From Clostridiales bacterium (GTDB lineage Bacteria > Bacillota > Clostridia > Oscillospirales > Oscillospiraceae), in NCBI GenBank assembly GCA_902363045.1, contig CABIYX010000027.1, positions 1-46,322 of the forward strand: DNA of 46,322 nt. Direction: 5' to 3'. Shown in pieces: positions 10,878 to 35,551 of the stretch. The position numbers and the translations under genes are program-made. The first letter of the stretch is position 1. Each line of letters opens with the position of its first letter. The notes under the pieces were generated by a model. The model did no database searches, had not been told where the DNA came from, and saw only the letters and a list, made by a program, of their open reading frames with translations.

Positions 10878-10886
10878 AACAAGGGC

Positions 10887-15215: not shown

Positions 15216-15255
15216 GGGCCTATAGCTCAGCTGGGAGAGCGTACGGTTCGCATCC
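15216..15255 (+). pseudogene. tRNA-Ala(CGC) 5' half; left attachment junction
   Basis: Positions 1-40 of a tRNA-Ala are perfect: acceptor GGGCCTA, D-stem GCTC/GAGC, anticodon 5' strand TACGG, loop TTCGCAT, then CC. The sequence then leaves tRNA. The missing part is at 35507-35551. Joined at the shared TTCGCATCC (15247-15255) the two give a 76-base cloverleaf with fully paired anticodon (TACGG/CCGTA) and acceptor stems. The acceptor includes the alanine identity pair G3-U70. This marks where an element integrated. Confidence 0.85.
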
Positions 15256-15385
15256 ATATGGACTTCCATCACCGGCCCGATTTTTCCTTCCAATTTTTCG
15301 TCCGATATTTCGGACTTTTTCCTCAAAACTGAATATCTGAAAAATCCATTTTTCACAACTTTTTTGATTGAAAAGTGGCTGATTT

Positions 15386-15461
15386 GGGCCTGTAGCGCAG
15401 CTGGGAGCGCACTACATTCGCATTGTAGGGGTCGTCGGTTCGAATCCGATCAGGTCCACCA
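15386..15461 (+). tRNA. tRNA-Ala (anticodon CGC), intact
   Basis: All 76 bases fold normally: acceptor GGGCCTG/CAGGTCC with the G3-U70 alanine identity pair, D-stem GCGC/GCGC, anticodon stem CTACA/TGTAG, loop TTCGCAT, T-stem GTCGG/CCGAT, and encoded ACCA. It reads GCG codons. It differs from the split copy in stems and T-loop, so it is a separate gene, not a rejoined hybrid. It lies 130 bases inside the element's left junction and could replace the function lost by the split. A terminator follows at 15471-15500. Confidence 0.93.
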
Positions 15462-15470
15462 TTTTTAAGA

Positions 15471-15500
15471 AAAATCACCGCCAATTTGGCGGTGATTTTT
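15471..15500 (+). terminator. Terminator of tRNA-Ala
   Basis: A 12-bp stem (15471-15482 with 15488-15499) with an AATTT loop starts ten bases after the tRNA. Its 3' arm ends in a T-run. Confidence 0.8.
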
Positions 15501-15504
15501 CGTT

Positions 15505-15547
15505 TGACCACAATTTTACCACAGACAGGGAAAAAATCTGACCACTT
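15505..15547. repeat. Candidate left arm-type integrase sites
   Basis: TGACCACAA (15505-15513), TACCACAG (15517-15524) and TGACCACTT (15539-15547) lie between the tRNA terminator and int. The same three motifs recur at the right end (35371-35423), the last in inverted orientation. This fits tyrosine-integrase arm sites. Confidence 0.5.
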
Positions 15548-15614
15548 CACAAGGTTACAGGCGCCGTGATTGCTCAGTTCGGCGCCTGTTTTTTCTTCTC
15601 TTTGATTCAGCATC

Positions 15615-17215
15615 TCATCTCTTGATATGCCGGCATTTGCACTTTTGTCCCGCCAGCTCCGCTCTGACCTCGTCGTAGTATTTATGGACGGTGGTGATGG
15701 CCATACCCGTCTGCCGTGCGATGTAACTCTTATTGCTCACGCCGGGGTTCTCCCGCAGGTAGGCAGCGAGCTGCTTTTTCTTGGGGCTGACACCGTCTGG
15801 ATATTCTGTGACGGCACCAGAGCGCAGGGCGGCGATCTCCGCCTTCATTTGCAGGATCAGCTCCGACAGTTTCTCCTCACATTCCTCCCTGGTGTGGGCG
15901 TAGACATTCCGGGAGTGCTTTTTCCCATCCGGCCACACCGGGGAGTATCTGCCCTCCCAAAGATCTTCTTTGATCTGCTTGAGATAGCCTGTTCCCGGCC
16001 TGCGCCGTTCCGGCTGATATGGGGTGAACGGTTTCTGTTCAGCGGGTTCCTCCTGCCGTTTTTTGGGCACCTCAGCCTTGGCGATGCCCTGGTCGATGCT
16101 GACCGCCGCATTCTCCTGCATCTCATCGGTGATGTGAGTGTAGATGTTCAGGGTAGTCCTGGAGGAGATGTGCCCAATGATGGCGGACAGTGTTTTGATG
16201 TCCATGCCGTGTTCCAGGGAGATGGTGGCAAAGGTGTGCCGCAGATCGTGAAATCTGATTCTTTTGCACCCGGCGCGCTCCAGAATGACCTGGAGCCGTT
16301 TCCGCACATAGCCCGGATCGATGGGCTGCTCCGGCTTGATCCGGGATGGGAACATCAAGTCAGAGAAGATGCCTTTCCTGTACGCCAGCAGGAGTTCCAC
16401 CATGGCGGGCGGCAGGATGATGGTCCGGAAGGCAGCCTTGGTCTTGGGCTCGCTGACGATCAGCTTTCCGCCCACCGGGTAGACCTGCTTGTTGATCCGC
16501 AGTTCCCCCGTCTTTTCATTCAGGTCCTCCCATCGGAGAGCCAGGATCTCACCCCGGCGCAGGCCGGTGGTCAGCTCCAGCAGGAACAGTTCATACATTC
16601 CCTCTTCCTTGGCCTGAAGCAGGAACCGCTGGATCTCCTCCCCGGAGAGGATCTTCATCTCCTTTTGCTCCGGCGGCGGCAGCTTGCAACCCAGGATGGG
16701 GTTCTTTTTGATAAGGCCATCCTTGATGGCCCGTTCCAAAGACATCCGAACCACATGGTAGCAGCTGCGTACCGACCGCTCCGACATCCCCGGTCCCTTG
16801 GTGTCCCGATGGATCTTCCGGCCATTGGCTTTCATCTCGTTCAGGAACTTCTGACAGTCGGCCTGAGTCAGCTTGTTCAGCGGGATTTGTCCCAGCGCCG
16901 GGATGGCGTGGACATAGATCCACTCCTCGTATCCTTTTTGTGTGGTGGCCCGGATCGTTGGCTGGCAGTGGTTCTCGTACCAATAGCCGATCCAGTCCCC
17001 AAAGCGCATATTGGGCTTGATCTTGAAGGGCTCCGCTGTGCCGCAGCCATCCTGAAGCTGCTTCAGCTTTTCCAGGCACTCCGCCTTTGTTTTGCCAGCA
17101 CACTTTTGGTTTTAGCCTTTCCGTTTTCATCGTAGCCTACGATGTGCCGCCCCTCCCAGCGGCCGTCCTTCCGCAGTCGGACAGTGCCTTGACCATTTTT
17201 CCGTTTTCGTGCCAT
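15615..17215 (-). pseudogene. Tyrosine integrase 1, single frameshift near its N-terminus
   Basis: The main open part (start 17009, 464 residues) has a SAM-like core-binding domain and a catalytic domain with GLRRGEILALRW, HDLRHTFATISL, IIGHISS and the tyrosine region TLNIYTHI. The true N-terminus starts at 17215 with MARKRKNGQGTVRLRKDGRW, an AP2-like arm-binding domain. It is joined by a one-base frameshift in the TTTT run at 17090-17093. The C-terminal extension of about 130 residues holds a second arm-like stretch (DLWEGRYSPVWPDGKKHS) and a final HTH-like tail. It ends 154 bases from the intact tRNA-Ala, as expected for the gene that integrated the element. If the frameshift is a sequence error, the gene is intact. 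Confidence 0.85.
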
Positions 17216-17226
17216 GCTTCCGCCTC

Positions 17227-18366
17227 CTACACCATGAATTCTTCCATGAAGCCGCCCACGATCTCTGATGCCCTCCGGTGCATATCCCCGGTGACATGGG
17301 TATAGGTGTCCAGCGTGAAGGAGGTCTGAGTGTGGCCCAGGATCCCGGAGAGTGTCTTGGCGTCCACCCCGCTGGTGAGGGCATGGGTGGCGAAGGTGTG
17401 CCGCAGATCATGAAATCTCAAATCAGGGAGTCCGGCCTCGGCCAGCAGTTTTTTCATCCGATTGTAGCCGCTGCTGGGCATGACCGGATCCTCCGGATGG
17501 AGTGGGTTGGGGAAGAGCCATTGAGAGATCGCTGTTCGCTTCCGTTCCGTCAGGAACTGCACCGTGCTGGGCGGTAACCTGATGATCCTTCGCCCTGTTC
17601 CGGTCTTGGTATTACCTACATAGTAGCCGCCGCCCCGCTTCCCATGCAGGGTCCTGCGGATGGAGAGCGTCCCTTTCTTTTCATCGAAGTCGCTCCACAT
17701 CAGCCCACACAGTTCTCCCCGCCGCAGCCCTGTGGTGATCTCCAGATAGAAGAAGTCATGCCATTGCCGGTCCTGTTTGATGGCCTCCAGGAACCGCTCC
17801 AGCTGCGCGTCATTGAGGATGGTCCTGGGTGTAGACTCTTTCTTGGGGAGCGTCACATCCTTTGTGGGATTTTTTACGATGAGATGGCGGTCCATCGCCA
17901 CATCCAACGCCTGATGCAGCACGCCGTGGATCCTCCGCACCGTGGTACCCGCCAGAGGACCGCCGTCTGCTCCGCCCTCCTTTTTCAGCTTTCGATACAG
18001 CTTCTGGACATCTCCGGCAGTGACCTTGCGGATTTCCTTCCCGCCCAGATAGGGAACAATCTTGTCCCTGACATAAGCCCGGTAGCCTTCAAAGGTAGAG
18101 GGCCGCACGGAGGGCTCCGCACACTCTTTCAGCCAGACCTCCAGCCATTCGCCCAGGGTCATCCGGCAGTCCTCTGTCAGTTCGGCCCCATCATATTCTT
18201 CCATGCACCGATGCAGTTTTTCCAGCAGCTCCTTCTGTGTCCCAGCGGAGAGGTAGTGGAAGATGGGATCGCCGTTTTCCTTGTGGCCGATGACGATGCG
18301 ACCCTCCCAGCGGCCATCCTCCCGTTTTCGTACCATACCGTCACCGGACGGCCTTCGCTTTGCCAT
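17227..18366 (-). CDS. Tyrosine integrase 2
   Basis: A complete 379-residue phage/ICE-type site-specific recombinase. The N-terminal arm-binding domain (MAKRRPSGDGMVRKREDGRW) leads into a core-binding domain and a catalytic domain. Catalytic residues lie in TTGLRRGELCGL, RFHDLRHTFATHAL, GILGHTQ and the tyrosine in TLDTYTHV. A ribosome-binding site (GAGGTG) precedes the ATG. Its stop is 11 bases before the start of integrase 1, so the two are translated from one message. Their arm domains are related but clearly diverged, which suggests old duplication or capture rather than a recent copy. Its target site is unknown. Confidence 0.93.
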   Translation of the reverse strand: MAKRRPSGDGMVRKREDGRWEGRIVIGHKENGDPIFHYLSAGTQKELLEKLHRCMEEYDGAELTEDCRMTLGEWLEVWLKECAEPSVRPSTFEGYRAYVRDKIVPYLGGKEIRKVTAGDVQKLYRKLKKEGGADGGPLAGTTVRRIHGVLHQALDVAMDRHLIVKNPTKDVTLPKKESTPRTILNDAQLERFLEAIKQDRQWHDFFYLEITTGLRRGELCGLMWSDFDEKKGTLSIRRTLHGKRGGGYYVGNTKTGTGRRIIRLPPSTVQFLTERKRTAISQWLFPNPLHPEDPVMPSSGYNRMKKLLAEAGLPDLRFHDLRHTFATHALTSGVDAKTLSGILGHTQTSFTLDTYTHVTGDMHRRASEIVGGFMEEFMV

Positions 18367-18387
18367 GTTTTTTCACCTCCGAGGTTT

Positions 18388-18759
18388 TTATCTTTGATTT
18401 GCATCGCAGGAATTGCGTGGCCTACCGGATGGGTAGTTGCTTTGTTTCCCTCTCCATTCATCCCTGCGGAGCAGTTCCACCAGACTGCCGTCGTCTTCGT
18501 CCAGCGCCTCCAGAATCAGACGCGCTCCCAGACGGAAGCCCAGGATGAAGTTCTCCAGAGCCAGCGTGCTTCCGATCTCGTTCTCCGCGTCGATGAGCCG
18601 TAGCAGCAGACTGTGGGCGTCGCCCTCCAGCAGTTTGGTCAGATGTTCTTCGCACTTGTGAGACTGCTCCATCGCTTTCATCAGAGAAGTGCCGGAACGG
18701 ATCTGGCGGTCGCATGGCGTGATGTTCCCGTAGTACAGGTCTTCCAGCGTCTCTCGCAT
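18388..18759 (-). CDS. DUF6809-like small protein
   Basis: This 123-residue protein starts MRETLEDLYYGNITPCDRQI, a start I recognise from small DUF6809-family proteins on Clostridia mobile elements. Their function is unknown. It looks soluble and largely helical, with no signal peptide or membrane segment. The middle (LRLIDAENEIGSTLALENFI, then LGFRLGARLILEALDEDD) matches the family's conserved FxxGFxLG pattern. It lies 21 bases upstream of integrase 2 in the same direction and is probably co-expressed with it. Confidence 0.7.
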   Translation of the reverse strand: MRETLEDLYYGNITPCDRQIRSGTSLMKAMEQSHKCEEHLTKLLEGDAHSLLLRLIDAENEIGSTLALENFILGFRLGARLILEALDEDDGSLVELLRRDEWRGKQSNYPSGRPRNSCDANQR

Positions 18760-19250: not shown

Positions 19251-19622
19251 TCACAGGCCGCTGCATGGGGGAACGCTTCCGTCAAGCGCACCGACCGTCG
19301 CGGGCAGAAACACTCGGCAGTACCCCTCTGCTCCGGAGACCATGCCGCGTCGCAGCATCTCCCCACACAGGAGGAGACGGAACAGCGTGTTGCGATAGCA
19401 GTCCCTTACCTCCGCCCCTTTCTCTCTGGCGAATATCTTTTGTTCCTCGGGCAAGCTGCTGTGCGTTTCATCACAGAGGAACACCGCCAGAGCGTTTTCA
19501 GCAATGGGGTCTCTGTGCGTGCGGTCCCACTGGTCCATGATGTACCTCCTTGCGTCAACCGTGCGCTGTGCCATCAGAGTCGGGTCCTGCTGGATCAGCA
19601 GTTCCACCATCTGGGTCAGCAT
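19251..19622 (-). CDS. Hypothetical protein
   Basis: I do not recognise this 123-residue protein. It begins MLTQMVELLIQQDPTLMAQR and is rich in charged helix-forming residues. It has no signal peptide, membrane helix or metal motif. Its start overlaps the stop of the upstream HTH gene by a few bases, a layout typical of translational coupling. That, with the conserved spacing, is the main reason to accept it. The last 20 or so residues are of lower complexity, so it could have a diverged tail. Confidence 0.55.
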   Translation of the reverse strand: MLTQMVELLIQQDPTLMAQRTVDARRYIMDQWDRTHRDPIAENALAVFLCDETHSSLPEEQKIFAREKGAEVRDCYRNTLFRLLLCGEMLRRGMVSGAEGYCRVFLPATVGALDGSVPPCSGL

Positions 19623-20056
19623 ACCGCCTCACCTCGTTTCTGTTCATAGGCCGCTCTGCGCTGCTCCACTCTCTGCCGCTCCGCAGCCACCTCCGCCGCA
19701 CACATCTGCCGCTCATAGAACTGGTCGATGGCCATTTGGATCGGCAGGATGGTGTAGAGCAGACAACCATTCTGCCTGCGGCCGTCCTGGGTGGTGATGG
19801 TGGTGCGCTCGGTACGGATGAGTCCCCGTTCCTCCAGCTCCATCACATACTTGCGCACGGTGTTGGTGCACTTCCCGATGGCTTCGCCGATCATCCGGTA
19901 GCTGGCCAGACACTGATCGGTCTTTCGATCCTCCCGATGAAGCAGATAGCCGTAGACCGCGATGGCCGTGGAGGACAGCCCCAGAGCATAGATCTCATTG
20001 GGCAGAGGAAAATAGTTTTTGATGGGATCCCGCTTGGTCCAGTTCTGTTTTCTCAT
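19616..20056 (-). CDS. Helix-turn-helix protein, replication-initiator type
   Basis: This 146-residue protein starts MRKQNWTKRDPIKNYFPLPN. A winged-helix-like domain follows: LGLSSTAIAVYGYLLHRED, YRMIGEAIGKCTNTVRKYVM, ELEERGLIRTERTTI. This layout is common in small HTH proteins near the rep genes of Clostridia elements. Its role may be regulatory or in replication. The C-terminal 40 residues are charged and helical. The start at 20056 has GGAGGT upstream and overlaps the stop of the excisionase-like gene by four bases (ATGA), so the two are coupled. Confidence 0.75.
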   Translation of the reverse strand: MRKQNWTKRDPIKNYFPLPNEIYALGLSSTAIAVYGYLLHREDRKTDQCLASYRMIGEAIGKCTNTVRKYVMELEERGLIRTERTTITTQDGRRQNGCLLYTILPIQMAIDQFYERQMCAAEVAAERQRVEQRRAAYEQKRGEAVC

Positions 20057-20262
20057 TTGGCACCTCCAGACCGCTCCTCCGCCCACTGAATGAACTTCTC
20101 TTTGGGGACCACCATTCGGCTGCCCACACGCAGCACTGGGAAGCCTGGCTCGTGCATCACCTCGTAGGCGGTGGAGATGGACACGCCCAGCACCTCTGAC
20201 AGCAGGTGTGCGTTGAGGAACAGCGGAAGATCCTCGTAGCTGGTACACTGTGACTGTTTCAT
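20053..20262 (-). CDS. Excisionase-family DNA-binding protein
   Basis: This 69-residue protein carries a MerR/Xis-like helix-turn-helix: LFLNAHLLSEVLGVSISTAY, EVMHEPGFPVLRVGSRMVVP and KEKFIQWAEE. Such proteins bend the element end and steer tyrosine integrases towards excision, or act as small regulators. Its place in a leftward operon with an HTH gene, and then the two integrases, supports an excision role, but direct evidence is lacking. The four-base overlap with the next gene indicates translational coupling. Confidence 0.8.
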   Translation of the reverse strand: MKQSQCTSYEDLPLFLNAHLLSEVLGVSISTAYEVMHEPGFPVLRVGSRMVVPKEKFIQWAEERSGGAK

Positions 20263-20595
20263 ATTGATACCTCCGATCTGATTTCTGTTGTGATTTTCTT
20301 CTTGCGTTTCGGAGGTCGTTCTGGTAAACTGAACAGCAGATCAGGCTGTGTTTTCCGAAACGCAGCGAGCCGCCAGACTGTTGCAGCAGTTTGGCGGCTT
20401 CCTTTTTCAGCGGACCATGCTCATCACCTCTTTTCTTCTGGACTGATTTTGACTTTCTACGGATGAACCGGATTGACTTGTTTCTATCAATCAGGTACAA
20501 TCAGAGCATAGCACAGGGAAAAGGCCAAGCGCAATAGCTTCGGCGGTTGTTGGGTACACAACAGAAAGTCCATCGGAAACAGGGTGAGGGAAACT
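20263..20595. other. Divergent control region
   Basis: About 330 bases separate the leftward excisionase operon from the rightward DUF6076-like gene. The rightward promoter is noted separately. I see no further gene. A leftward promoter must also lie here but no strong match was found. Confidence 0.5.
20473..20501 (+). promoter_or_regulatory. Sigma-A-type promoter for the DUF6076-like gene
   Basis: TTGACT and TACAAT are separated by 17 bases. They lie about 95 bases upstream of the start codon. Confidence 0.65.
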
Positions 20596-21675
20596 ATGAT
20601 CTATGATAACAACCGCTTCTTCGAACGGTTCGATGTGCTGTTCGGGAAGAAGAGTAGCATCGTGGCAGGGGAAGAATATCCGCTGGGCTTCTTTGCAGCG
20701 GAGGTCATGGACATGGACGCCGCGGTGCTTGAGGAATTAAAAAAGCTGACCCAACAGGCCAGCCAGGAGTTTGATATGTTTCTGACCGCGCGGACAGCAT
20801 CCAGCGCGGGGATGGCAGTTCAGGTGTTGGACCAAGCCTGGGAGCTTGTCAGGCAGCTTCCCCTGTATAACAAGATCCCGTACCGGGAAGGGCGTGGAAG
20901 TTCAGTCAGCGGCGTTGTCTATGAGCTGCGCGGCGATGAGCAGAAGCTGGACCGGATACTCACAGTCGGGACAGCAGAGAATGAGATGTTGCGGCGTTGG
21001 CGCGGAATGTACAACCGTCTGGCAGACGACCTCCAACGGTTCAAGTACGATACGGATGATATGCTGACCGACTATTTTGAGGAGCTGCCATCCCGCAGAC
21101 CGGAGGCCTATGCGGCGGCATTCGAATCGTGCATGGCGTCCTTCCGGGAGATCTATATGCAGACGGAGGACGAGGAGGACCTTGCGTACATGAAGGGACG
21201 CCGGATCAACTTTCCGGTGAGCATCTCCTTTGTGGTGGAGCGTGACAAAAAGACGGGCCAGCCATTCATGGCTGAGCGGATGACCTTTGAGGACTTGATC
21301 AGCTTTCTGTATATGGACCTGTACCGGGGAATGGCTGCCGGCAACGTGCCGCGACAGTGTCACAACTGCGGCAGGTGGTTTTTAGCGATCGGCGCATATG
21401 ACACGGTGTACTGCCAGCGGGTGGCGCCGGGAGAGGTCGCCCGCACCTGCCGTCAGGTGGGCGCTCACAGAAAAGAGCGGGAGAAGAACGGCAGGGACTT
21501 TGCCTGCCGTGAATACGCCAGAGCGTATAACCGGCTGAAAACCTGGAAACAGCGGGGCAAGATCAGCGCGAAGGAATGGAACCGCCGGGTGGCGCACATC
21601 CAGGACGTGAAAGCAGAATTCCTGGCAGGCGGTATGAGCGACGCCGAATACACAGCGAAGCTGGATCAGGTGTAA
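20596..21675 (+). CDS. DUF6076-like protein with a Cys zinc-finger motif
   Basis: This protein has about 359 residues. The body is helical and acidic, without signal peptide or membrane segments. Near its C-terminal third it carries PRQCHNCGRWFLA followed by DTVYCQRV and ARTCRQVGAH, a four-cysteine zinc site as in DUF6076-type and CGNR-like proteins. The tail is very basic (KEREKNGRDFACREYARAYN), suggesting nucleic-acid contact. I prefer the ATG at 20596, seven bases after GTGAGGGA, over an in-frame GTG at 20584. It is divergent from the excisionase operon and ends in a strong terminator. Function unknown. Confidence 0.75.
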   Translation: MIYDNNRFFERFDVLFGKKSSIVAGEEYPLGFFAAEVMDMDAAVLEELKKLTQQASQEFDMFLTARTASSAGMAVQVLDQAWELVRQLPLYNKIPYREGRGSSVSGVVYELRGDEQKLDRILTVGTAENEMLRRWRGMYNRLADDLQRFKYDTDDMLTDYFEELPSRRPEAYAAAFESCMASFREIYMQTEDEEDLAYMKGRRINFPVSISFVVERDKKTGQPFMAERMTFEDLISFLYMDLYRGMAAGNVPRQCHNCGRWFLAIGAYDTVYCQRVAPGEVARTCRQVGAHRKEREKNGRDFACREYARAYNRLKTWKQRGKISAKEWNRRVAHIQDVKAEFLAGGMSDAEYTAKLDQV

Positions 21676-21692
21676 TCCACAAAAGAATTGCA

Positions 21693-21736
21693 AAAGCCGA
21701 TGGGTCAGTCGTGATGACTGTCCCATCGGCTTTTTC
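21693..21736 (+). terminator. Intrinsic terminator after the DUF6076-like gene
   Basis: The outer stem pairs AAAAGCCGATGGG with CCCATCGGCTTTT, and the inner stem pairs CAGTC with GACTG. It is followed by a T-run and lies about 20 bases past the stop. Confidence 0.85.
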
Positions 21737-21773
21737 TTTGATTATGGCATCACACTCTGCGGATTGTTTGAAG

Positions 21774-22106: not shown

Positions 22107-23132
22107 TCAGCGCTGGATGCGTCCGGAGCCGTCACCGCCGGCCAGCTTTTCCACTTCGGAGACGGTGACCATGTTGTAGTCGCCCTCGATGGTGTGCTTC
22201 AGAGCGGAAGCGGCCACGGCAAACTCCACGGCCTTCTGGATGGACTTTCCATTGAGCAGCGCATAAATGAGGCCGCCGCCGAAGCTGTCGCCGCCACCCA
22301 CGCGGTCAATGATGCGCAGTTCGTACTTCTTGGAGAAGCAGTACTCATTGGAAGCCACATCGTACAGCATGGCGCTCCAGCCGTTGTCGGAAGCGGAGTG
22401 GGACTCACGCAGGGTGATGGCCACCTTTTCAAAGCCGAACTTGTCAGCCAGCTGCTTGGCCACGGACTTGTAGCCCTCGTGGTTGATCTCACCGGCGTAG
22501 ATGTCGGTGGACTCGGCCTCAATGCCGAACACGTCCTTGGCGTCCTCCTCGTTGGAAATGCACACGTCCACGTACTGGCACAACTCGGTCATGGCCTCCC
22601 GGGCCTGCTGACGGGTCCACAGCTTGCCCCGGTAGTTGAGGTCGCAGGAGATCTTCACGCCGTGGGCTTTGGCGGTCTTGCAGGCCTGCTTGCAGGTCTC
22701 CACCAGGTTGGGGCCCAGAGCGGGGGTGATGCCGGTGAAGTGGAACCAGTCCACGCCCTCGAAGATCTTGTCCCAGTCAAAGTCGCTGGGCTGGGACTCC
22801 TGGATGGCGGAGTGGGCACGGTCGTAGATGCACACACTGCCCCGCTGGGAGGCGCCCTTCTCGTTGAAGTAGATGCCCACACGGTCGCCGCCCCGGACGA
22901 TCATGGTGGTGTCCACGCCGTAGCGGCGCAGGGAGTTGACGGCAGCCTGGCCAATGGCGTGGGCGGGCAGCTTAGTGACATAGGCGGCATCCAGGCCGTA
23001 GTTGGCCAGGGAGACGGCCACGTTGGCCTCGCCGCCGCCGAAGGTGAACTCCAGGTGATCAGCCTGGACAAAACGCTCGTAGTTATAGGGCTGGAGCCGG
23101 ATCATCAGCTCGCCGAAGGTAACAACTTTCAT
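22107..23132 (-). CDS. kdgK: 2-keto-3-deoxygluconate kinase (PfkB family)
   Basis: It phosphorylates KDG to KDPG in hexuronate or Entner-Doudoroff-type sugar acid breakdown. The 341 residues show the PfkB N-terminal signature FTFGGGEANVAVSLANYGLD and the C-terminal ATP/catalytic motif RVGGGDSFGGGLIYALL, whose Asp is the base. RGGDRVGIYFNEKG is typical of KdgK. AAGGAG lies 9 bases before the ATG. It is downstream of the broken KDPG aldolase in the same operon, so KDPG made here would need an aldolase encoded elsewhere. Ribokinase-type alternatives are less likely given the neighbour. Confidence 0.88.
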   Translation of the reverse strand: MKVVTFGELMIRLQPYNYERFVQADHLEFTFGGGEANVAVSLANYGLDAAYVTKLPAHAIGQAAVNSLRRYGVDTTMIVRGGDRVGIYFNEKGASQRGSVCIYDRAHSAIQESQPSDFDWDKIFEGVDWFHFTGITPALGPNLVETCKQACKTAKAHGVKISCDLNYRGKLWTRQQAREAMTELCQYVDVCISNEEDAKDVFGIEAESTDIYAGEINHEGYKSVAKQLADKFGFEKVAITLRESHSASDNGWSAMLYDVASNEYCFSKKYELRIIDRVGGGDSFGGGLIYALLNGKSIQKAVEFAVAASALKHTIEGDYNMVTVSEVEKLAGGDGSGRIQR

Positions 23133-23179
23133 TGTGCTCTACTCCTTATCACAAACTCAAATAGAATGGTTTTGCCCGA

Positions 23180-24069
23180 TTATTCCTTCACCAGGTGGAC
23201 AGCAAAGCCGGCCAGCTCATCCTTGAGATAGATGGCCTTAGTGTTGCCCTTGGCATCGGTCTTGCGGCTGGACTCATCGAAGGTCACGCCCCGCAGACCC
23301 AGGTGGTAGACGGCACGATCCACGTTGTTGGTGCCGATGGCAATGTGGCCGTTGGCACCGCGGACGGGAGCCTTGTTGCACTCCACCGCGGAGCCGGCAA
23401 AGATGGAGGAGTTGCCGGGCTTGTACTCCAGGTCAAACAGGGCGCACAGGGTCTTGGTGGTCTGCTCGGCCTGGGCCTCGTCGGCGCAGTTGATACCCAC
23501 GTGGGCCATGGAGAAACCCAGCATGGTCTTGACGGCCTCCTTGCAGATGCGGGTGATCTCATCCCACTGCTCCCCCTCGACGAGTTCCTTCTTCACCATC
23601 CAGGTGCCGCCGCAGGCGATAATGCGGTCAAAGCCCAGATAGTCCATCATGTTCTTGGTGTTCACGCCGCCAGTAGGCATCCAGCGCAGGTTGGTGTAGG
23701 GGCCGGCCAGGGCCTTCAGCTTGGCCACGCCGCCGTTCTGCTCGGCATGGAAGAATTTCACCACGTCCAGACCCATGCTCATGGCCTGCTCCATCTCGCC
23801 GGGGGTGGCGGTGCCGGGCATCATGACCACGCCCTTATCCAGGACATAGCGGGTGATCTCGGGGTTGAAGCCGGGGCTGACGATGAACTGGGAACCGGTG
23901 GCAATGGCCCGGTCGGCCTACTCCTTGGTGAGCACGGTTCCGGCGCCCACCAGCATATCGGGTACCTCCGCCACAATGCGGCGGATTGCCTCCTCAGCGG
24001 CGGCGGTGCGGAAGGTGACCTCGGCGGCAGGCAGACCGCCTTTCACCAGAGCACGGGCCAAGGGGAAGA
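23180..24069 (-). pseudogene. eda: KDPG aldolase with VOC domain, truncated and with a stop
   Basis: It reads from the junction at about 24069 as PLARALVKGGLPAAEVTFRT, then MLVGAGTVLTKE and a TAG at 23918-23920 in place of the usual Gln, then ADRAIATGSQFIVSPGFNPE. The Schiff-base lysine region is GLDVVKFFHAEQ. After about residue 200 a C-terminal VOC-like domain follows (LGFSMAHVGINCADEAQAE, then GNSSIFAGSAVEC and GFAVHLVKE), as in Clostridia KDPG aldolases of about 320 residues. The first 25-30 residues are replaced by MATE sequence. It was the operon partner of kdgK. Confidence 0.85.
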
Positions 24070-25061: not shown

Positions 25062-25222
25062 CATGGTGTTGTCACCTCTGGGACCCGTGCTCCGCAAAGG
25101 AAAGCCGGGAAAGTGGGAACTGTACTGTGCGGAATAATAACCTGCTGTGTCAAGGGGCCCGGGGGACATCTGCCCCGGGCCCCCGACAGGAGAGAAAGAA
25201 AGGAATGATCTCATAAAAATGC

Positions 25223-26647: not shown

Positions 26648-26677
26648 AAAAAGCCTCCTGTTCCAATGGTGAAGCAG

Positions 26678-28210: not shown

Positions 28211-28386
28211 ACAAGAAGCCTCCTGTCATATAATACTCTTGGTTTTTCTTTCATGGAATCACTGCTTTCGCAGATACAGGCCCGCCAAAGCCCAGGACCC
28301 ATACCTCCTCACTTCTTTTTTGACTCTTTTCACCTCTCTCCAATGTACGCTGCTTGGGCGGGGCAGCCTGCTGCAGGTACACTGGA

Positions 28387-29793
28387 TCAGTTCCGGTTTT
28401 CGTAACCGGAGGCATACATGCTGGCGGGAATAAACTGTCCCTGGCCGTAGCGGCCCACAAACTTGGCGTTTTCCACTACCACCTGTCCCCGCAGCAGAAC
28501 GGTCTCCACCCGGCCGGACTGGCGGCGACCCTCATAAAGGTTGTAGTCCACGCCGTTGGGGTTGTCCGCCAGGCGGATCACGCCCTCATAGCTGGGATCA
28601 AAGATCACAATGTCTGCGTCGGAACCTACCGCCAACGTACCCTTTCGGGGGTAAATGCCGTTGATCTTGGCTGGCTGAGTAGCGATGACGTCTACAAATT
28701 TCTGACGGCTCAGCTTGCCGGTACATACGCCTTCGGTCCATACCACGTGCAGGCGATCACCGGCGCCGGGGGAGCCGTTGGGGATCTGCGTGAAATCGTC
28801 CCGCCCCGCCTGCTTGAGCTCTGCTACGTCGATGCCGCAGTGGTCAGAGGAGACCGCCGTCAGCAGTCCGCCGGCCAGGGCCTGCCACAGGGCCTCACAG
28901 TCCTCCTGATCCCGCAAGGCAGGGGAGCAGACAAACTTGGCCGCTTCGTTGAAGTCGGGGTTATCCAGGACCTCCTTGGTGGTGGTTAGATAATGAGTAC
29001 AGGTCTCACCAGAAACTCGCTGGCCAGTTCCCTTCGCCTTTTGCAGTTCGGCAATGGCCTCCCTGCAGGTCATATGGGCAATGTATAGAGGTGTATCGGT
29101 CTGGCCAGCCAGGTAGATCGCCCGACGCACTGCCTCCGCCTCGGTAAAGGGCGGGCGGGAGACGTAGTGGTAATGGGGGGTCAGCTGTCCCTTCTTTACG
29201 CACTCGCTGCGCAGGAAATTCAGGATCTCACCATTTTCTGCGTGAACAAAGACGGTGGCGCCCACCTGGCGGCTTTTCTCCAGAATGCGGAAGAAAGTTC
29301 CGTCATCCACGTGGAGGGGTGAACCATTGTAAGCCATAAAGATCTTGATGCTAGAGATTCCCCACCTGGGAAAGTCCTCGATTTCGTCAAAGATGCTGTC
29401 CATAATATACGTTACCATGGCATGAAGGGCAAAGTCTACACAGGCTTTGTCCTTTGCCCGCACATTAATTCGGTAATCAATGGAATCCAGCAGTCCCCGG
29501 TCCGGATCTTGAGGCGCAAAATCCACAATGGTGGTAGTTCCGCCTACAATGGCAGAGTCAGTGGTCTCATACCCTGCGGTGTCCCGATCGCCCACGTTGC
29601 ATAGGGCGGAAAAGTGGGTGTGCTGGTCTACGCCGCCCGGAAACACATATTTCCTCTGGGCGTCGATCACAAGATCCGCCGCTTCGTCTAAGTGGGTCCC
29701 CATGGCGCGGATTACCTCATCCTCCACCAGGATATCCCCCACAAACTCCTGTTCCGCGGTTACAATGGTGCCTCCTTTGATCAAGGTGCGCAT
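28387..29793 (-). CDS. Dihydropyrimidinase / D-hydantoinase
   Basis: It opens the ring of 5,6-dihydropyrimidines or 5-monosubstituted hydantoins to N-carbamoyl amino acids. The 468 residues are typical. The binuclear metal site is visible: VDQHTHF near residue 57, the lysine to be carboxylated in SSIKIFMAYNG, His in VFVHAENGE and YIAHMTC, and Asp in AVSSDHCG. AGGAGA precedes the start at 29793. A longer in-frame reading overlaps the racemase and is not used. Racemase and carbamoylase lie directly upstream, which favours hydantoin over plain pyrimidine breakdown. Confidence 0.93.
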   Translation of the reverse strand: MRTLIKGGTIVTAEQEFVGDILVEDEVIRAMGTHLDEAADLVIDAQRKYVFPGGVDQHTHFSALCNVGDRDTAGYETTDSAIVGGTTTIVDFAPQDPDRGLLDSIDYRINVRAKDKACVDFALHAMVTYIMDSIFDEIEDFPRWGISSIKIFMAYNGSPLHVDDGTFFRILEKSRQVGATVFVHAENGEILNFLRSECVKKGQLTPHYHYVSRPPFTEAEAVRRAIYLAGQTDTPLYIAHMTCREAIAELQKAKGTGQRVSGETCTHYLTTTKEVLDNPDFNEAAKFVCSPALRDQEDCEALWQALAGGLLTAVSSDHCGIDVAELKQAGRDDFTQIPNGSPGAGDRLHVVWTEGVCTGKLSRQKFVDVIATQPAKINGIYPRKGTLAVGSDADIVIFDPSYEGVIRLADNPNGVDYNLYEGRRQSGRVETVLLRGQVVVENAKFVGRYGQGQFIPASMYASGYENRN

Positions 29794-29804
29794 ACAGTCA
29801 TCTC

Positions 29805-30551
29805 CTAAAACATCAAATCTTGTTGGGTAAACATGGGAAAGCCCACGATTTTCTTCGGCTCCGGGAATCCCCAGGTGGATACCTTGCTGGTATGCAGTCT
29901 CATATCCACCATAGCTTCCGCAAATTTGACCGCGGGCATAACTCCGTCCAGTACAGGAACGCCCAACTGAGCAGACAAGTCCTGGACAAAGTCCACAAAA
30001 CCGGCGCATCCCAGCAGGATGCATTCTGCTCCGTCCTGCTGTACGGCCAGCCCCCCCTGGTGTGCCAGAGCCTCCAGCCCCTTCTGGGGATTCCGGCCAA
30101 ATTCCAGCACGCTCAGACCGGTGGAGCGGATAGAACGGCAGAATTTTTCCGCTCCGTAGTTGGCCACCACATCCTCCGTCACCTTGCGGGAGCGGTCCAG
30201 CACCGATACGATAGAGAAATAGGGGGCAATGAATTTTGCCGCTGTGATGGCCGACTCGCAGATCCCCAGCACCGGCTTAGAGGTGACCTCCCGTGCAGCC
30301 TGGAGCCCGGGGTCCCCGAAGCAGGCAATGATAAAAGCGTCAGCTCCTTCCTCCCGGTCTCCCCGGATCACCTCTTTCAGAACCCCGGGAACAGCCAAAT
30401 GCTCATCCACATAGCACTCGATACTGTCCGGTCCGGACGCCGGGCTGACGGCCCAAACCTGGGTATCGCTGCGGGCTACCCGGCGGGCCAGATTCTCTAC
30501 ACTGTCGGTCATGGATTGTGTCGTATTGGGGTTAATAATCTTGATTTTCAC
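29805..30551 (-). CDS. Hydantoin racemase (Asp/Glu racemase superfamily)
   Basis: It interconverts D- and L-5-substituted hydantoins, or allantoin enantiomers, so that the hydantoinase and a stereospecific carbamoylase can use the whole pool. The 248 residues begin MKIKIINPNTTQSMTDSVEN, a family hallmark. The two catalytic cysteines are in IIACFGDPGL and ILLGCAGFVDF. The start overlaps the carbamoylase stop by four bases (ATGA), and the hydantoinase start follows 11 bases after its stop. Allantoin racemase is the main alternative. It would imply an allantoinase-like role for the next gene. Confidence 0.9.
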   Translation of the reverse strand: MKIKIINPNTTQSMTDSVENLARRVARSDTQVWAVSPASGPDSIECYVDEHLAVPGVLKEVIRGDREEGADAFIIACFGDPGLQAAREVTSKPVLGICESAITAAKFIAPYFSIVSVLDRSRKVTEDVVANYGAEKFCRSIRSTGLSVLEFGRNPQKGLEALAHQGGLAVQQDGAECILLGCAGFVDFVQDLSAQLGVPVLDGVMPAVKFAEAMVDMRLHTSKVSTWGFPEPKKIVGFPMFTQQDLMF

Positions 30552-31729
30552 AGATCTCCCTCCTCTTGATCCAATGCTTGAACCATTTCCATCAGCAGCT
30601 GGGCACCCCGGTACAGGTCCTCAGGCGCACTGTACTCACGAATAGAGTGGCTGATTCCATCTTTGCTGGGAATGAACAGGAGCATAGAGGGCACGGTTTG
30701 TCCCCAATTCATCAGATCATGACCAGCGCCGCTGAACATGTTGAGGAAGTGGATGCCGCGGCCACGGCAGAGCCTCTCACTCAGCTCCATCAGCTTCGGG
30801 CTGCACTGGGTAGGCTCCTGACGGATATACGCTTCCCCTGTCAGATCCGCATGCTCTTCCAGCACGGAAGCGATCACCTGATCCATGGGCTCCATGGTCG
30901 GGTTGCGCAGCTCCACAATAAACTCCACCTTGCCAGGAATCACATTGACCGCTCCCGGAAACACCTGGAGCGTGCCCACGGTACAAACCATATCCGGCGA
31001 AGCGGCTCTAGCCCGATCCATAAGCTTGGTAATGATCCGGCAGGCGCTTACCAGGGCATCATCCCGCAGATGCATGGGTGTACTGCCTGCATGATTGGCA
31101 CAGCCGGAAACCGTCATGCGGTAGCGCACGATACCTACAATGCCGCCTGCCAGGCCGATTTGCGCCCCCTCCGCCTCCAGAAGTCCCCCTTGCTCAATGT
31201 GCAGCTCCAAATAGCACTGATATTGGGTCAGATCCCGGCGGCAGGCGTTGACCTCTTCCATGGTAAGACCGTGAAGGACCAGATTGGGCCGCATGGCCCC
31301 GTCGATTTCTCCGCCGGTGAAGGCTTTACTGCCAAAGGTACCGCCAATGACATTGCCCTCCTCCTCGGTGAAGGCGACCACCTGAATGGGATGTCGATTT
31401 TGATAGCCCATTTCCCGAAGGCGCTGCACACATTCGATCCCCGCCAATACGCCGTAGGTTCCGTCATAGATGCCGCCGCCAGGTACGGTGTCGATGTGGG
31501 AGCCAATGCAGATTGTTTTCCCTTTGCCCGGCAGCTCGCCGACCAGATTGCCTACGGGATCAATCGACGTCTGGAGTCCCGCCTGCTCCATACACCGCTG
31601 CACATAGGTCCGTCCTTCGTCATAGGCTGGAGTATAAGGCAGCCGGGTGGTCCCTTCCCCCGGCATAAAACCGATCTGCCCCAACTGGGTCAGGCGGCGG
31701 GAAAGACGGGAACCATTGATATCGTTCAT
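30548..31729 (-). CDS. N-carbamoyl-L-amino-acid hydrolase / allantoate amidohydrolase family
   Basis: This M20-type zinc or manganese enzyme releases CO2 and ammonia from N-carbamoyl amino acids, or from allantoate or ureidoglycolate. The 393 residues contain the metal ligands in IGSHIDTVPGGGIYDG, AFTEEEGN, ELHIEQGGLLE and FSGAGHDLMNW. The start at 31729 overlaps the aminotransferase stop by four bases and has GGAGGA upstream. A longer reading into the aminotransferase gene was rejected. Member enzymes are usually L-specific, which would fit a partner racemase. Beta-ureidopropionase activity is also possible. Confidence 0.9.
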   Translation of the reverse strand: MNDINGSRLSRRLTQLGQIGFMPGEGTTRLPYTPAYDEGRTYVQRCMEQAGLQTSIDPVGNLVGELPGKGKTICIGSHIDTVPGGGIYDGTYGVLAGIECVQRLREMGYQNRHPIQVVAFTEEEGNVIGGTFGSKAFTGGEIDGAMRPNLVLHGLTMEEVNACRRDLTQYQCYLELHIEQGGLLEAEGAQIGLAGGIVGIVRYRMTVSGCANHAGSTPMHLRDDALVSACRIITKLMDRARAASPDMVCTVGTLQVFPGAVNVIPGKVEFIVELRNPTMEPMDQVIASVLEEHADLTGEAYIRQEPTQCSPKLMELSERLCRGRGIHFLNMFSGAGHDLMNWGQTVPSMLLFIPSKDGISHSIREYSAPEDLYRGAQLLMEMVQALDQEEGDL

Positions 31730-32907
31730 GCCGGATCCTCCCCGGCCATGTGGGAGCGGATAAACGCCTCTAAAGCATCCAAACCCTGCTCCAGGCATTC
31801 CATCGATGTGGCATAGGACAGGCGGATGTACCCTTCGCCAAAGTCTCCAAAAGCGGTGCCCGGTACCACAACCACCTGCTTTTCTTCCAGCAGCTTCATA
31901 GCAAATTCCTCGCAGGGCATGCCCAGGCGGCTGATGTTGATAAACGCATAGAAGGTTCCGGCAGGAGTATGACAGGACAGGCCTGAAATTTCAGCGATCC
32001 GCTGCATCACATAGTCCCTGCGCAGACGGTACTGCTCCACCATATACTTCAGGTGATCTTGAGATCCCTCCAACGCTTCAATGGCAGCAACCTGGCATGG
32101 AGTAGCCGCACAGGCACTGACATTTTCCTGCAGCTTGATCATATTTCGGATCAGTTCCTCCGGTCCAGCGGCGTAGCCAATACGCCAGCCGGTCATAGCA
32201 TACGTTTTGGAAAGGCTGTCAATGACCAACGTGCGCTCCTTCATTCCGGGCAGGGTGGCAAATCCAGTGTATGTCCTCCCGTCAAAGAGGATATGCTTAT
32301 ATACCTCGTCTGCTAGCACCACCAGGTCCCGCTCCTGAGCCAGTTTTGCCAGCTGGGACAGTGTCTCAGCACTGGCTACGGCTCCCGTGGGATTGCAGGG
32401 GCTGTTTAAAATGATCGCCTTTGTCTTGCTGGTGATGGCCTCGGCAACAGCGGATACATCCAAATCAAACCCCCGCTGTGCATCAGTTTTCACGGATACC
32501 GGCACGCCGCCGCACATCCGGATCTGCTGAATGTAATTGGTCCAGCAGGGCTCATTGACGATGACCTCATCTCCTGGGTTCAGCAGCACCTTCAGGGCTA
32601 AAAACAATGCTCCCATAGCTCCGGGCGTTACTACGATCTGGCTCGCCGGATCGTAGGACAACCCTTCTGTACGCGCAAGATAACGGGCGATAGCCTGGCG
32701 CAGAGCCAGCAGGCCCGCATTTTCGGAATATTTGGTCTTGCCTTCTCGGATGGCCCGGCACCCGGCCTCCACCACATTTGCCGAGGCGGTAAAATCCGGT
32801 TCTCCCAGCGTGAAGCTGAGCACACGGTCATATTCCAGCGCCTTATTAAACATTTTCCGGATCTTGGAGGGCTGGATCTGCTGGGTGTTGTCTGAAATCT
32901 GAATCAT
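31726..32907 (-). CDS. Class I/II PLP-dependent aminotransferase
   Basis: The 393 residues have the fold-type I layout of aspartate/aromatic aminotransferases: LSFTLGEPDFTASANVV at the start, NSPCNPTGA, VLADEVYKHILFDG, and the PLP lysine in SLSKTYAMTGWRIGYA. The C-terminal carboxylate-binding Arg is in GYIRLSYA. It is wedged between a membrane protein and the carbamoylase with overlaps on both sides, so it probably deaminates the amino acid freed from the carbamoyl compound. AAGGAG precedes the start at 32907. The exact substrate cannot be read from sequence. Confidence 0.92.
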   Translation of the reverse strand: MIQISDNTQQIQPSKIRKMFNKALEYDRVLSFTLGEPDFTASANVVEAGCRAIREGKTKYSENAGLLALRQAIARYLARTEGLSYDPASQIVVTPGAMGALFLALKVLLNPGDEVIVNEPCWTNYIQQIRMCGGVPVSVKTDAQRGFDLDVSAVAEAITSKTKAIILNSPCNPTGAVASAETLSQLAKLAQERDLVVLADEVYKHILFDGRTYTGFATLPGMKERTLVIDSLSKTYAMTGWRIGYAAGPEELIRNMIKLQENVSACAATPCQVAAIEALEGSQDHLKYMVEQYRLRRDYVMQRIAEISGLSCHTPAGTFYAFINISRLGMPCEEFAMKLLEEKQVVVVPGTAFGDFGEGYIRLSYATSMECLEQGLDALEAFIRSHMAGEDPA

Positions 32908-33584
32908 ACAAGTGACTCCTTTCTGCTCTGATTTTTCCGTTCCCTGAGTTTTAGAATGGTCATCAATATACCAAACACCAGGGAAAGGACTGCGGCAAAT
33001 ACAATGCGATACTCTTGGGGAAGAAGAAAACCAACGGTATTGATGGGAATCCAAAACAGTGGAATGGTTTTAAACAGGGTAAAATCCACCAGCTCGCCCC
33101 AGTCCACCGAGTCCACTGCCTGGCGCGGCGTAATATGGCGTCCCTCCAGAAAGCGGATCTCGCCATAATTTCCACACACCCGCATCAGGGCGGAGTGGAT
33201 GGGGGCAAAAAACAGATTGTTGGTACAGCTGGTAAAAAAGGCTAGCGCCAAAGCATTTCCATATCCGGGAAGCAGCCCAGCCGCCATGGCTTGCTGCGTA
33301 CCCTGGCTGAACACGCTGAAGGCCAGGGTAACAAAAAGGCCTCCTACTCCCCAGCTTACACTTTTGAACCATGTGGCCCGGTTGATCTGCCAGTGTCCCT
33401 CCAGCATCCGCCCCGAGAGCAGCTCTCCCGCCGTAGCATAGACGGAAAATTGAATAAATCCGGCCAGATAAGGATACATTGCATTAAACCAAGCAAAGCC
33501 CCCTGTAACACAAAGGAGCACGGTGGCCGCGGCCAGCAGTCCATAGGCAGCCACCCAATAGATATCCCTTCGTTTCATATACAT
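32904..33584 (-). CDS. Membrane protein, possibly Mpv17/PMP22-like
   Basis: This 226-residue protein starts MYMKRRDIYWVAAYGLLAAA and has about four or five hydrophobic segments. The C-terminal stretch WGELVDFTLFKTIPLFWIPI, NTVGFLLPQEYRIVFAAVLS recalls the Mpv17/PMP22 pattern (W, P and N spaced before a final helix), but the match is weak and from memory. It leads the operon and overlaps the aminotransferase start by four bases, so it is certainly co-translated. It could be a substrate channel. A start at the second Met (33578) is equally possible. Confidence 0.7.
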   Translation of the reverse strand: MYMKRRDIYWVAAYGLLAAATVLLCVTGGFAWFNAMYPYLAGFIQFSVYATAGELLSGRMLEGHWQINRATWFKSVSWGVGGLFVTLAFSVFSQGTQQAMAAGLLPGYGNALALAFFTSCTNNLFFAPIHSALMRVCGNYGEIRFLEGRHITPRQAVDSVDWGELVDFTLFKTIPLFWIPINTVGFLLPQEYRIVFAAVLSLVFGILMTILKLRERKNQSRKESLV

Positions 33585-33604
33585 CCCCTAACTTTTGTAT
33601 CCTA

Positions 33605-33650
33605 AATATAGCAAAATGGAGCCGGCGTTGAAATTCAGCGCCGGCTCCAT
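33605..33650 (-). promoter_or_regulatory. Promoter -10 with adjoining 12-bp palindrome
   Basis: A perfect inverted repeat ATGGAGCCGGCG/CGCCGGCTCCAT (33616-33627 with 33639-33650) lies next to a TATATT -10 (33605-33610) ahead of the catabolic operon. No good -35 is seen, as expected for an activator-dependent promoter. It could also be the LuxR gene's terminator, since four T follow on the minus strand. Confidence 0.5.
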
Positions 33651-33778
33651 CTTATTTAATCCATGTATTATCCAAGGAGATCTTATGTTTCTCTGTATGG
33701 GACCGATGTTTCTTTTTATACCACTAAAGGATACTGCAATTCAAACAATTTCAAGCAAGCTTTTTTGCTTCCATTTAT

Positions 33779-34579
33779 TTATAGTGCATCAAAATCAATC
33801 TTGTTTGTGGACATTGGGAGGCTTTGGAGCATTTGCACCCGATTCCGTACGTTCATCTTGGTGTAAATACTGTGGAAATGTTTTTTTACCGTATGGATGC
33901 TGATATTCATTTTTTGGGCAATGTCTTCATTGGACAGTCCATGTACCGCCAGATCCAACATCTCTCCCTCCCGACTGGTCAGACCGTATTGACGGCACAG
34001 CTTCTCATGGTACCCTTTTGCAAAGAAATAACGGGTGTCGCCCTTTTTAGCCTCATATACCAGACGGTATGCAAAGTGCTTGTGCAGCTGCTCCAGTACA
34101 AACATATCCCGTTCACTGAATGGAGGCTTGTCTGCCTCACGATACAGCCGCAATAGGCCCACCGGCTCCTCCCGGAAACAGATCGAGAGTCCCACCGAGT
34201 GGGTCAGGTGGTTTGGCAAATAAAAGTTCTGGTAAATTCCTTGATTTTTTATCTGCTCCTCCCGAACGGACATGGATTCCCGAAAAGCCCCGCCTTTGCA
34301 GGTATACAGGACCCAGCGAAAGGCATCTGAGTTTAAACTCTCCTGTACCCATGCATTCACCGCCTGCTGAGACAGTTGAAACGCTGCGGGTGTCTGAAAC
34401 TGATAGGCCCCGTCTTCGGTGGTGGAGATCCGGGCAAAAATAGCTGCATCATAAGGAATAAGAAAGGGCAGCCATCGATTCAGCATTTCCTGCTGCATCT
34501 CCTCTACTGTATAGATAAAAGAAATATTATACGCAATTTCATTGAGGAGTATCCACTCATTTTCATTTAAAAATGCCAT
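33779..34579 (-). CDS. LuxR-family transcriptional regulator
   Basis: This 266-residue protein has an N-terminal domain of about 190 residues, possibly GAF/PAS-like (NEIAYNISFIYTVEEMQQEM; GLSICFREEPVGLLRLYREA). The C-terminal LuxR HTH reads YGLTSREGEMLDLAVHGLSN, EDIAQKMNISIHTVKKHFHS and IYTKMNVRNRVQML. GGGAGG lies upstream of the ATG. It is transcribed towards the catabolic operon and is the obvious candidate activator, perhaps sensing a hydantoin or dihydropyrimidine through its N-terminal domain. No receiver domain or autoinducer-domain motif was recognised. Confidence 0.9.
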   Translation of the reverse strand: MAFLNENEWILLNEIAYNISFIYTVEEMQQEMLNRWLPFLIPYDAAIFARISTTEDGAYQFQTPAAFQLSQQAVNAWVQESLNSDAFRWVLYTCKGGAFRESMSVREEQIKNQGIYQNFYLPNHLTHSVGLSICFREEPVGLLRLYREADKPPFSERDMFVLEQLHKHFAYRLVYEAKKGDTRYFFAKGYHEKLCRQYGLTSREGEMLDLAVHGLSNEDIAQKMNISIHTVKKHFHSIYTKMNVRNRVQMLQSLPMSTNKIDFDAL

Positions 34580-35330
34580 ACTGGCACCTCCCTAAACATT
34601 TGTATCAAACTATAATGGGAAGATTAAAGCAGTCGATATCACCTGATTTACTGAGAATCCCGTTGCAGTTGAATATCCCACTTTTGCCTCTACACAGATA
34701 ATCAATATAAACAAGGGATTATACGCACCTTGTTACTCATCACCCCCGTCGTACAACCTAGTTATTGTTGCTTATTTCAGCAGTCCTCCAACAAAAGCCA
34801 GTTGTGCACGGTACACTGCCTATTGGGACGGCCAATGTTGTACGGCTCGCATTTCATCAGCCCTCTTCTTCTGGGAAGGCTATAACCACCCCTACGAGCT
34901 ACTCTTTGAAGTGTTACTCCCTTCCATGCTGTTATAAATGTGAACTATTTCCTGGGTTATTTTCACTTCTTTTCAGTTAATGACTTTGCATATCTGCTCC
35001 AATTGGAATTACTTCGCCGTCCATAAGAAAAATTCATCACTTTTGATTCACTGTCATGTTGTATCACTCTGAGTTTATTTTATTTATTATACCGTAATAT
35101 TTCTGAAATCACAGTATAGTTTAAAATAAATCAAAGAAATTTATTGCGCTGTTACTGCCCAAGAGAAGGATCATCTCTAGATCCTTACTTTCCTTTCAGG
35201 TAGAAGTTTCATCTTCCATTGGGTCAATATTATCTTATTCTTTGATTCAGCATAGCATTTCCTGCGTTACTCTGTCGAAGAAACCGTTGACGAATCGGCC
35301 ATTCCGAGGTACCACCTAAACACAGATACC
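34580..35330. other. AT-rich region without genes
   Basis: About 750 bases, AT-rich compared with the rest, especially 35040-35160. I see no coding frame longer than chance, no tRNA and no clear repeat. It separates the regulator from the right end of the element and may be decayed element DNA. Confidence 0.5.
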
Positions 35331-35333
35331 ACT

Positions 35334-35365
35334 CGAGCCTCGCCGGAATGTCCTGGCGAGGCTCG
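35334..35365. terminator. Hairpin near the right end of the element
   Basis: An 11-bp perfect stem (35334-35344 with 35355-35365) is followed by TTTGA. The hairpin plus TCGTTTGA tail resembles the arrangement after the left tRNA (15471-15505). Confidence 0.55.
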
Positions 35366-35370
35366 TTTGA

Positions 35371-35423
35371 TGACCACAACACATACCACAGAGGTCCTCG
35401 GAACGTGTGGAAACAAGTGGTCA
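35371..35423. repeat. Candidate right arm-type integrase sites
   Basis: TGACCACAA (35371-35379), TACCACAG (35384-35391) and AAGTGGTCA (35415-35423, the inverse of TGACCACTT) repeat the three left-end motifs. They lie about 85-135 bases from the right core. Confidence 0.5.
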
Positions 35424-35506
35424 GGAGAGGCCTAAATGCGAAATAATTGTTAGCAGAAACCTTTGGAAATAATCAAATCCAAGCACAAACTATACACATT
35501 TGTTCC

Positions 35507-35551
35507 TTCGCATCCGTAAGGTCGTCGGTTCGATCCCGATTAGGTCCACCA
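35507..35551 (+). pseudogene. tRNA-Ala(CGC) 3' half; right attachment junction
   Basis: From the core TTCGCATCC (35507-35515) onward the sequence is tRNA positions 32-76: anticodon 3' strand CCGTA, variable loop, T-arm GTCGG/CCGAT, acceptor TAGGTCC and ACCA. It pairs perfectly with the 5' half at 15216-15255 but not with the intact copy's anticodon strand (CTACA). Bases just before the core are not tRNA-like. The original terminator follows directly. Confidence 0.85.

Follow-up and report, generated by a model that had tools for sequence, protein, structure and literature searches.

A 20-kb island in a Clostridiales genome that splits a tRNA-Ala(CGC) gene in the anticodon loop and carries a complete tRNA-Ala(CGC) as its probable replacement

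In a stretch of 46,322 bp from a Clostridiales bacterium (contig CABIYX010000027.1 of assembly GCA_902363045.1, in its whole length referred to as the window), a cargo island of about 20 kb (15247-35506) interrupts a tRNA-Ala(CGC) gene, here called Y, in its anticodon loop and carries a second, complete tRNA-Ala(CGC), here called Z, which is probably read through from the host promoter and so replaces the broken gene. Because Z lies within the island, the latter would break one tRNA gene and bring along a whole replacement. The original prediction for this DNA had described the split gene, and had overlooked both the complete tRNA at 15386-15461 and a third 5' piece at 15114-15135. The parts that matter first are the following:

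15033-15060, forward strand: promoter-like site TTTACT-16-TATAAT (consensus match only) upstream of X5, the first tRNA piece
15216-15246, forward strand: Y5, 5' half of the split tRNA-Ala(CGC), referred to as the leftover
15247-15255, forward strand: left junction core TTCGCATCC, i.e. the anticodon loop TTCGCAT plus CC
15254-15385, forward strand: 132-bp spacer between Y5 and Z
15386-15461, forward strand: Z, the complete tRNA-Ala(CGC) carried by the island
35507-35551, forward strand: Y3, displaced 3' half of the split tRNA, opening with the right junction core TTCGCATCC

The 9-bp TTCGCATCC stands at both junctions, and these two places are its only exact matches in the window. When Y5 and Y3 are joined, they give a sequence of 76 nt that ARAGORN calls tRNA-Ala(CGC), with all five anticodon-stem pairs and all seven acceptor pairs, namely six Watson-Crick pairs and the G3-U70 wobble. 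In contrast, Y5 forms only two of five anticodon-stem pairs with the 3' half of Z. The prediction of two halves with a shared repeat, forming a 76-nt tRNA-Ala(CGC) with the G3-U70 pair and split by a 20-kb element through a crossover in the anticodon loop, was thus borne out. The uninterrupted locus expected in relatives was likewise found: the fused Y occurs as an identical, continuous 76-nt gene in at least 9 of the 64 genomes searched from the nearest genus (G001, G011, G017, G033, G069, G070, G075, G076 and G085, G numbers denoting the genomes compared; only fetched stretches were checked), which rules out a chance repeat as the source of the two halves. Intact ancestors therefore exist and the two halves fit each other, so that neither of the two outcomes named beforehand as refuting the prediction has come about. 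That the original gene is destroyed, as had also been claimed, is correct insofar as neither junction rebuilds Y; its function, however, need not be lost, given Z, and Y is probably not the original gene, as outlined below.

The nearest relative among the genomes compared is G001, which has 22% of the window's sampled words in common with it and in which the left flank of the window (5291-15148) is kept at 93.7% and the integrase region (15385-18434) at 92.4%; these conserved stretches surround a tRNA identical to the fused Y. An empty and an occupied site that align on both flanks are provided by G076, with the uninterrupted gene, and G029, where the left flank (82.8% over 1,166 columns) reaches the end of the tRNA, the right flank (87.5% over 6,403 columns) begins at the anticodon loop, and 4,960 bp separate a complete Z-like tRNA from the loop of the displaced 3' half.

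Including that of the window, four islands with both a leftover and a displaced half were found. The G008 island is on a single contig of 3.67 Mb with both ends in place: one end has the leftover half (CTACA stem), the spacer and the carried tRNA (CTGCG stem), and the displaced half (TGTAG) is found at a distance of about 29.7 kb; its fused halves equal an intact tRNA of G005 and G068. The island ends of G016 are on two contigs, and the fused halves equal the intact tRNA of G062 and G065. In G079 the ends lie 20.3 kb apart on one contig; a further insertion has cut the leftover in its D-arm, and the 59 nt that are left of the fused halves occur exactly in G027 and at another G079 locus. With the carried 3' half, the leftover 5' half forms three of five anticodon pairs in G008 and one of five in G016, as against five of five with the displaced half. 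A discriminating partner for the leftover was not found in ten further genomes that have the leftover signature, G003, G004, G010, G014, G022, G030, G032, G034, G035 and G036; in G022 the sole other 3' half fits the last leftover, but it fits the carried tRNA as well.

With respect to its expression, Z sits within the island at 132 bp from the crossover and is followed by two tyrosine-integrase genes, and the length of the spacer is 131-133 bp in all 18 cases (relatives and window). The pattern TTTAC(A/T)-16/17-TATAAT precedes the first tRNA piece in 10/10 arrays tested but none of 14 internal pieces or carried tRNAs. In this count, G014 is represented only by an internal piece, which lacks the pattern, and G022 without its units 2-7. 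This restriction of the pattern to first pieces suggests that the carried tRNA might be read through from the host tRNA promoter. Directly after Z, a hairpin with a T run can be seen in the sequence. Many of the spacers in relatives have a further hairpin, ACTTTT-N8-AAAAGT, just before the tRNA (15315-15385 region in the window), with the loop TTCGCAT in some of them.

Both ends of the island are further marked by candidate sites for which the purely descriptive label "arm-like" is coined here:

15505-15525, forward strand: left arm-like site, TGACCACA..ACCACAGA
35371-35392, forward strand: right arm-like site

The motif TGACCACA-N3-8-ACCACAGA has exactly two occurrences in the window, those at the two ends of the island, and none in 100 shuffles. 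Over all ends scanned, with up to two mismatches, the left site begins 118-119 bp past the start of the complete tRNA (10/10 left ends) and the right site 134-136 bp before the right core (7/7 right ends); four further, weaker matches lie inside the G016, G030 and G079 stretches. The distance to the left arm-like site is 87-88 bp from the complete tRNA's own loop and about 258 bp from the junction core in the window. The ends can hence be read as a canonical attP that would have received an insertion of 170 bp, a unit made up of the spacer and a 5' half.

Taken as a sequence of events, an older element, S1 (see below), would first have brought Y into a still older tRNA, and the cargo island would then have split Y by a crossover at TTCGCAT, catalysed by one or both of its integrases, int1 and int2, or by relatives acting in trans. 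The host 5' half would have stayed on the left of the island and the 3' half would have been displaced to its right, with Y rebuilt at neither junction, while Z would be transcribed from the host promoter and its leader trimmed by RNase P. Carrying a whole tRNA might free the island from the need for a host anticodon stem that fits its own 3' half.

Several observations weigh against this interpretation. The int1 frame is interrupted in the window and the int2 frame in G001, and the G008 island lacks a tblastn match to either integrase, one other integrase-domain protein being present. In G008, the carried 5' half also forms five of five pairs (three Watson-Crick, the rest wobbles) with the displaced 3' half. 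Read-through would be opposed by a terminator-like hairpin in the spacer of the window, matches of this kind being near the shuffle mean (2 found vs 0.9 +- 0.9), and no full cloverleaf for Z forms in the fold predicted for the 391-nt leader. The spacer also contains a conserved AATAT block, which could be part of a weak promoter missed by the consensus scan. Moreover, G001 has a tRNA-Ala(TGC), called by ARAGORN in the fetched stretch, and a tRNA-Ala(GGC) besides; the CGC gene may therefore be dispensable and its essentiality is doubtful. Finally, the leftover 5' half is present in front of only 8 of the 11 left ends seen (ten and that of G297, a genome of another genus) and is missing in G001, G017 and G029. 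Either it was lost later or some integration events differ; exchange between the repeated 5' ends is supposed here to have removed it in these three genomes.

Amongst the alternatives, the one that survives best, improbable as it appears, assumes that the 170-bp unit of spacer and 5' half, bounded by two loop cores, moves alone as a cassette, in the form of a small circle or by unequal exchange, and that Y5, spacer and Z of the window represent such a unit inserted beside an ordinary island. In its favour is G022, where seven leftover 5' halves stand in tandem, with a spacer after each, followed by a complete tRNA. This array has a period of 170 bp (L202 15059-16279, minus strand; G022:C19), whereas G022 has one island left end by pattern and two 3' halves, a further search having added none. 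No two of the seven units are more than 97% alike, and two have their nearest counterpart in another genome rather than among the other units of G022. The constant distance from the loop of the carried tRNA to the arm-like site in 10/10 left ends is also in line with a cassette. However, the single left end is a lower bound, since the pattern missed the known left end of G079, the two units that are 97% alike could be duplicates, and Z has its own matching 3' half, for which a unit with a 5' half alone would not suffice. The G022 stack could result either from the loss of island bodies or from units having moved alone.

Still less probable is canonical restoration, in which the target tRNA would be remade from the host 5' half and a 3' half supplied by the element. 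This is the usual rule for tRNA islands according to the Islander paper (PMC4383910) and an archaeal integrase review (PMC8371274). It would also agree with the complete tRNAs that have no leftover in front in G001, G017 and G029, and the distance of the carried tRNA's loop from the left arm-like site would suit a canonical core. The halves concerned, however, do not restore the target, as only 2/5, 3/5 and 1/5 anticodon pairs are formed in the window, G008 and G016, respectively. The least likely explanation, a half-gene mosaic made by recombination between tRNA copies or by assembly error without any site-specific integration, could draw on the similarity of tRNA 5' ends, which makes homologous exchange possible, and on the fragmented assemblies of many relatives, but is opposed by junctions that share one core and its flanking arm-like sites, by the recurrence of the layout with both ends in place on the single G008 contig and by empty and occupied sites that align on both flanks.

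The preferred reading, an island bringing its own replacement tRNA, would apply to more than the window. The leftover signature ending in CCATA was found in 12 of the 64 genomes of the genus, one of them (G032) with one mismatch, as counted from individual rows, the raw tally of 32 taking in intact tRNAs that match with mismatches. In a sample of the order, the exact pattern was found in 1 of 394 genomes, namely G297, which belongs to another genus of the same family and has a leftover, a spacer, a complete tRNA and a left arm-like site 119 bp past the start of the latter. After its displaced half, G016 has a hairpin of the island type and a weaker match to the arm-like motif, which suggests that the G016 island probably sits inside a tRNA brought by an older island of the same kind. 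Stacked half-genes may record a readable order of past insertions.

The closest known system is the tRNA-dependent lysogeny of actinobacteriophages (Guerrero-Bustamante and Hatfull, mBio 2024, PMC10865867), of which the window island is a non-phage version with a different layout; the authors of that study ask how common tRNA-dependent integration is elsewhere and how it is related to canonical, gene-restoring integration. The two would work alike, the window having TTCGCATCC at both junctions, only two of five pairs with the carried 3' half, and the carried Z. Integration of the phages is carried out by their own tyrosine integrase; the island has two PF00589 genes, int1 with an interrupted frame in the window, which might act in the same way. 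In contrast to the temperate phages of Actinobacteria, the window island comes from Clostridia and is without phage evidence, its tRNA is placed between core and integrase at a fixed 132 bp and without a consensus promoter, and the leftover halves of its family stack. Furthermore, the host tRNA is described as essential and the carried tRNA as required in the phage system, whereas the relative G001 has a tRNA-Ala(TGC) too.

Canonical tRNA islands, as described for Islander, are similar to the window island in the anticodon-loop crossover, the tyrosine integrase adjoining the tRNA and the displaced 3' fragment at the far end, but restore the host gene, while the complete tRNA of the window island is not a restored host gene, and a 5' leftover precedes it. 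The statement of the original prediction that most tRNA-targeting elements use the T-loop or the 3' end does not agree with the 2083 anticodon-centred as against 1836 T-stem sites given by Islander. Archaeal integrases of the pTN3 type (PMC8371274) resemble the window island in that the element supplies the 5' part of the tRNA; there, however, one half is supplied and the original gene rebuilt, whereas here a whole second tRNA is supplied. A published report of this arrangement was not found among the literature matches listed. The islands would constitute a non-phage family of Clostridia, rich in natural variants and fixed in layout, with a cargo ranging from metabolic (window) to defence functions (G008), and the constant loop-to-arm distance of the carried tRNA makes the step from canonical to tRNA-carrying integration directly testable.

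Upstream and downstream of the split gene, the window contains traces of a presumed older element, S1:

15114-15135, forward strand: X5, oldest of the 5' tRNA fragments, with its cut behind GGGAG in the D-arm; presumed to be a scar of S1
15136-15215, forward strand: 80-bp stretch from X5 to Y5, presumed to be the left end of S1
35598-37121, reverse strand: large serine recombinase, presumed integrase of S1

Junctions of the X5 type were also found in G015, G027 and G028, and the 80 bp between X5 and Y5 match stretches of the same three genomes that lie ahead of another tRNA 5' end. Downstream of Y3, the window has a terminator hairpin and the serine recombinase gene; the same sequence is present in G027 (99% over 854 bases), where it follows the 3' part of the same tRNA Y. 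Because of this shared downstream stretch and the older X5 upstream, the split gene Y is probably not the original chromosomal one. Y was likely delivered by S1, which appears to carry a complete tRNA and would have landed in the D-arm of a still older tRNA, X, so that two such handovers of a tRNA gene have probably taken place here. The right end of S1 was not found in the window, nor was the 3' remainder of X, which was looked for to the right of S1.

A second element of this kind, S2, lies in the D-arm of Y in G027. The pieces flanking it give exactly Y when joined at GGGAG, its ends form an imperfect inverted repeat around a GGGAG core, and its recombinase is 45% identical to that of S1. 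The protein encoded at 35598-37121 has resolvase, recombinase and zinc ribbon domains, and TP901-1 integrase is the sole solved relative found for it. Judging from adjacency and end structure, serine recombinases would have made the D-arm insertions. Large serine recombinase elements are alike in the domain build of this protein and, for S2, in inverted arms around a short core. However, the Islander paper of 2014 states that serine integrases are not known to target tRNA genes, and S1 and S2 differ from the known elements in being located in the D-arm of a tRNA-Ala and, for S1, in apparently carrying a complete tRNA; if true, a serine-recombinase element targeting a tRNA gene would be unusual. 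The right end of S2, together with the displaced tRNA part, is also present in L214, the IMG/VR record IMGVR_UViG_2788500391_000003, which is classed as viral; S2 may thus be a prophage, although a scan of ten proteins yielded no named structural phage family. Elements of the S2 type have an extra short tRNA 5' fragment, GGGCCTGTAGCTCAG, downstream of the complete tRNA (L043 10471; L208, reverse complement, 6872), and inverted loop copies, ATGCGAA and TTCGCAT, lie within about 130 bp to the left of the S2 right end (L062).

A wider hypothesis, which is offered tentatively and seems possible rather than probable, assumes that unrelated tyrosine- and serine-recombinase islands pass on the tRNA like a relay baton. 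The tRNA-Ala(CGC) carried by each would be complete but lack a promoter and become active only under a host tRNA promoter, so that integration would select for itself independently of the host stem; each handover would leave a 5' half, making the stack a record of integrations, and the islands would have arisen by the entry of the 170-bp unit into a canonical attP, where it may still move as a cassette.

The body of the window island comprises the following features:

15615-17009, reverse strand: int1, tyrosine integrase (PF00589)
17227-18366, reverse strand: int2, tyrosine integrase of 379 aa (PF00589)
18388-18759, reverse strand: DUF6809 protein
19616-20500, reverse strand: helix-turn-helix protein with weak matches to replication initiation proteins
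20584-21675, forward strand: DUF6076 protein, also in the G008 island
22107-34579, reverse strand: cargo block, mostly metabolic

Compared with G079 and G030, the int1 frame is broken ahead of its annotated start (17010-17215), and its N-terminal part looks broken. The cargo codes for a pfkB-family kinase, an aldolase fragment, two amidohydrolases (one of them a dihydropyrimidinase by NCBIfam), a Na+/H+ antiporter family protein, a hydantoinase/carbamoylase-family amidase, an aminotransferase and a LuxR-type regulator. The island is likely mobile. That it might be a phage is unsupported: no structural phage family was found in the scanned proteins of the window island with Pfam, nor in five of them with PHROGs, and neither the att patterns nor int2 had a match in 2.9 million IMG/VR contigs.

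By its gene content, the G008 island (L194, L195) is a defence island with the same type of ends as the window island, and codes for a type I restriction-modification system, Wadjet JetA and JetD with an SbcC-like partner, and a GmrSD endonuclease. The DUF6076 protein is common to both islands (20584-21675 in the window, L194 7143-8231 in G008), while the remaining cargo mostly differs.

To the right of S1, positions 37819-38192 of the window belong to a genus-wide repeat with many copies, two of them in G001, and adjoin polA. A 69-bp match to the stretch just before polA is located at 2.88 Mb in G001, far from the G001 tRNA at 0.62 Mb; together with the repeat, this one short match suggests that the right flank of the window may be rearranged.

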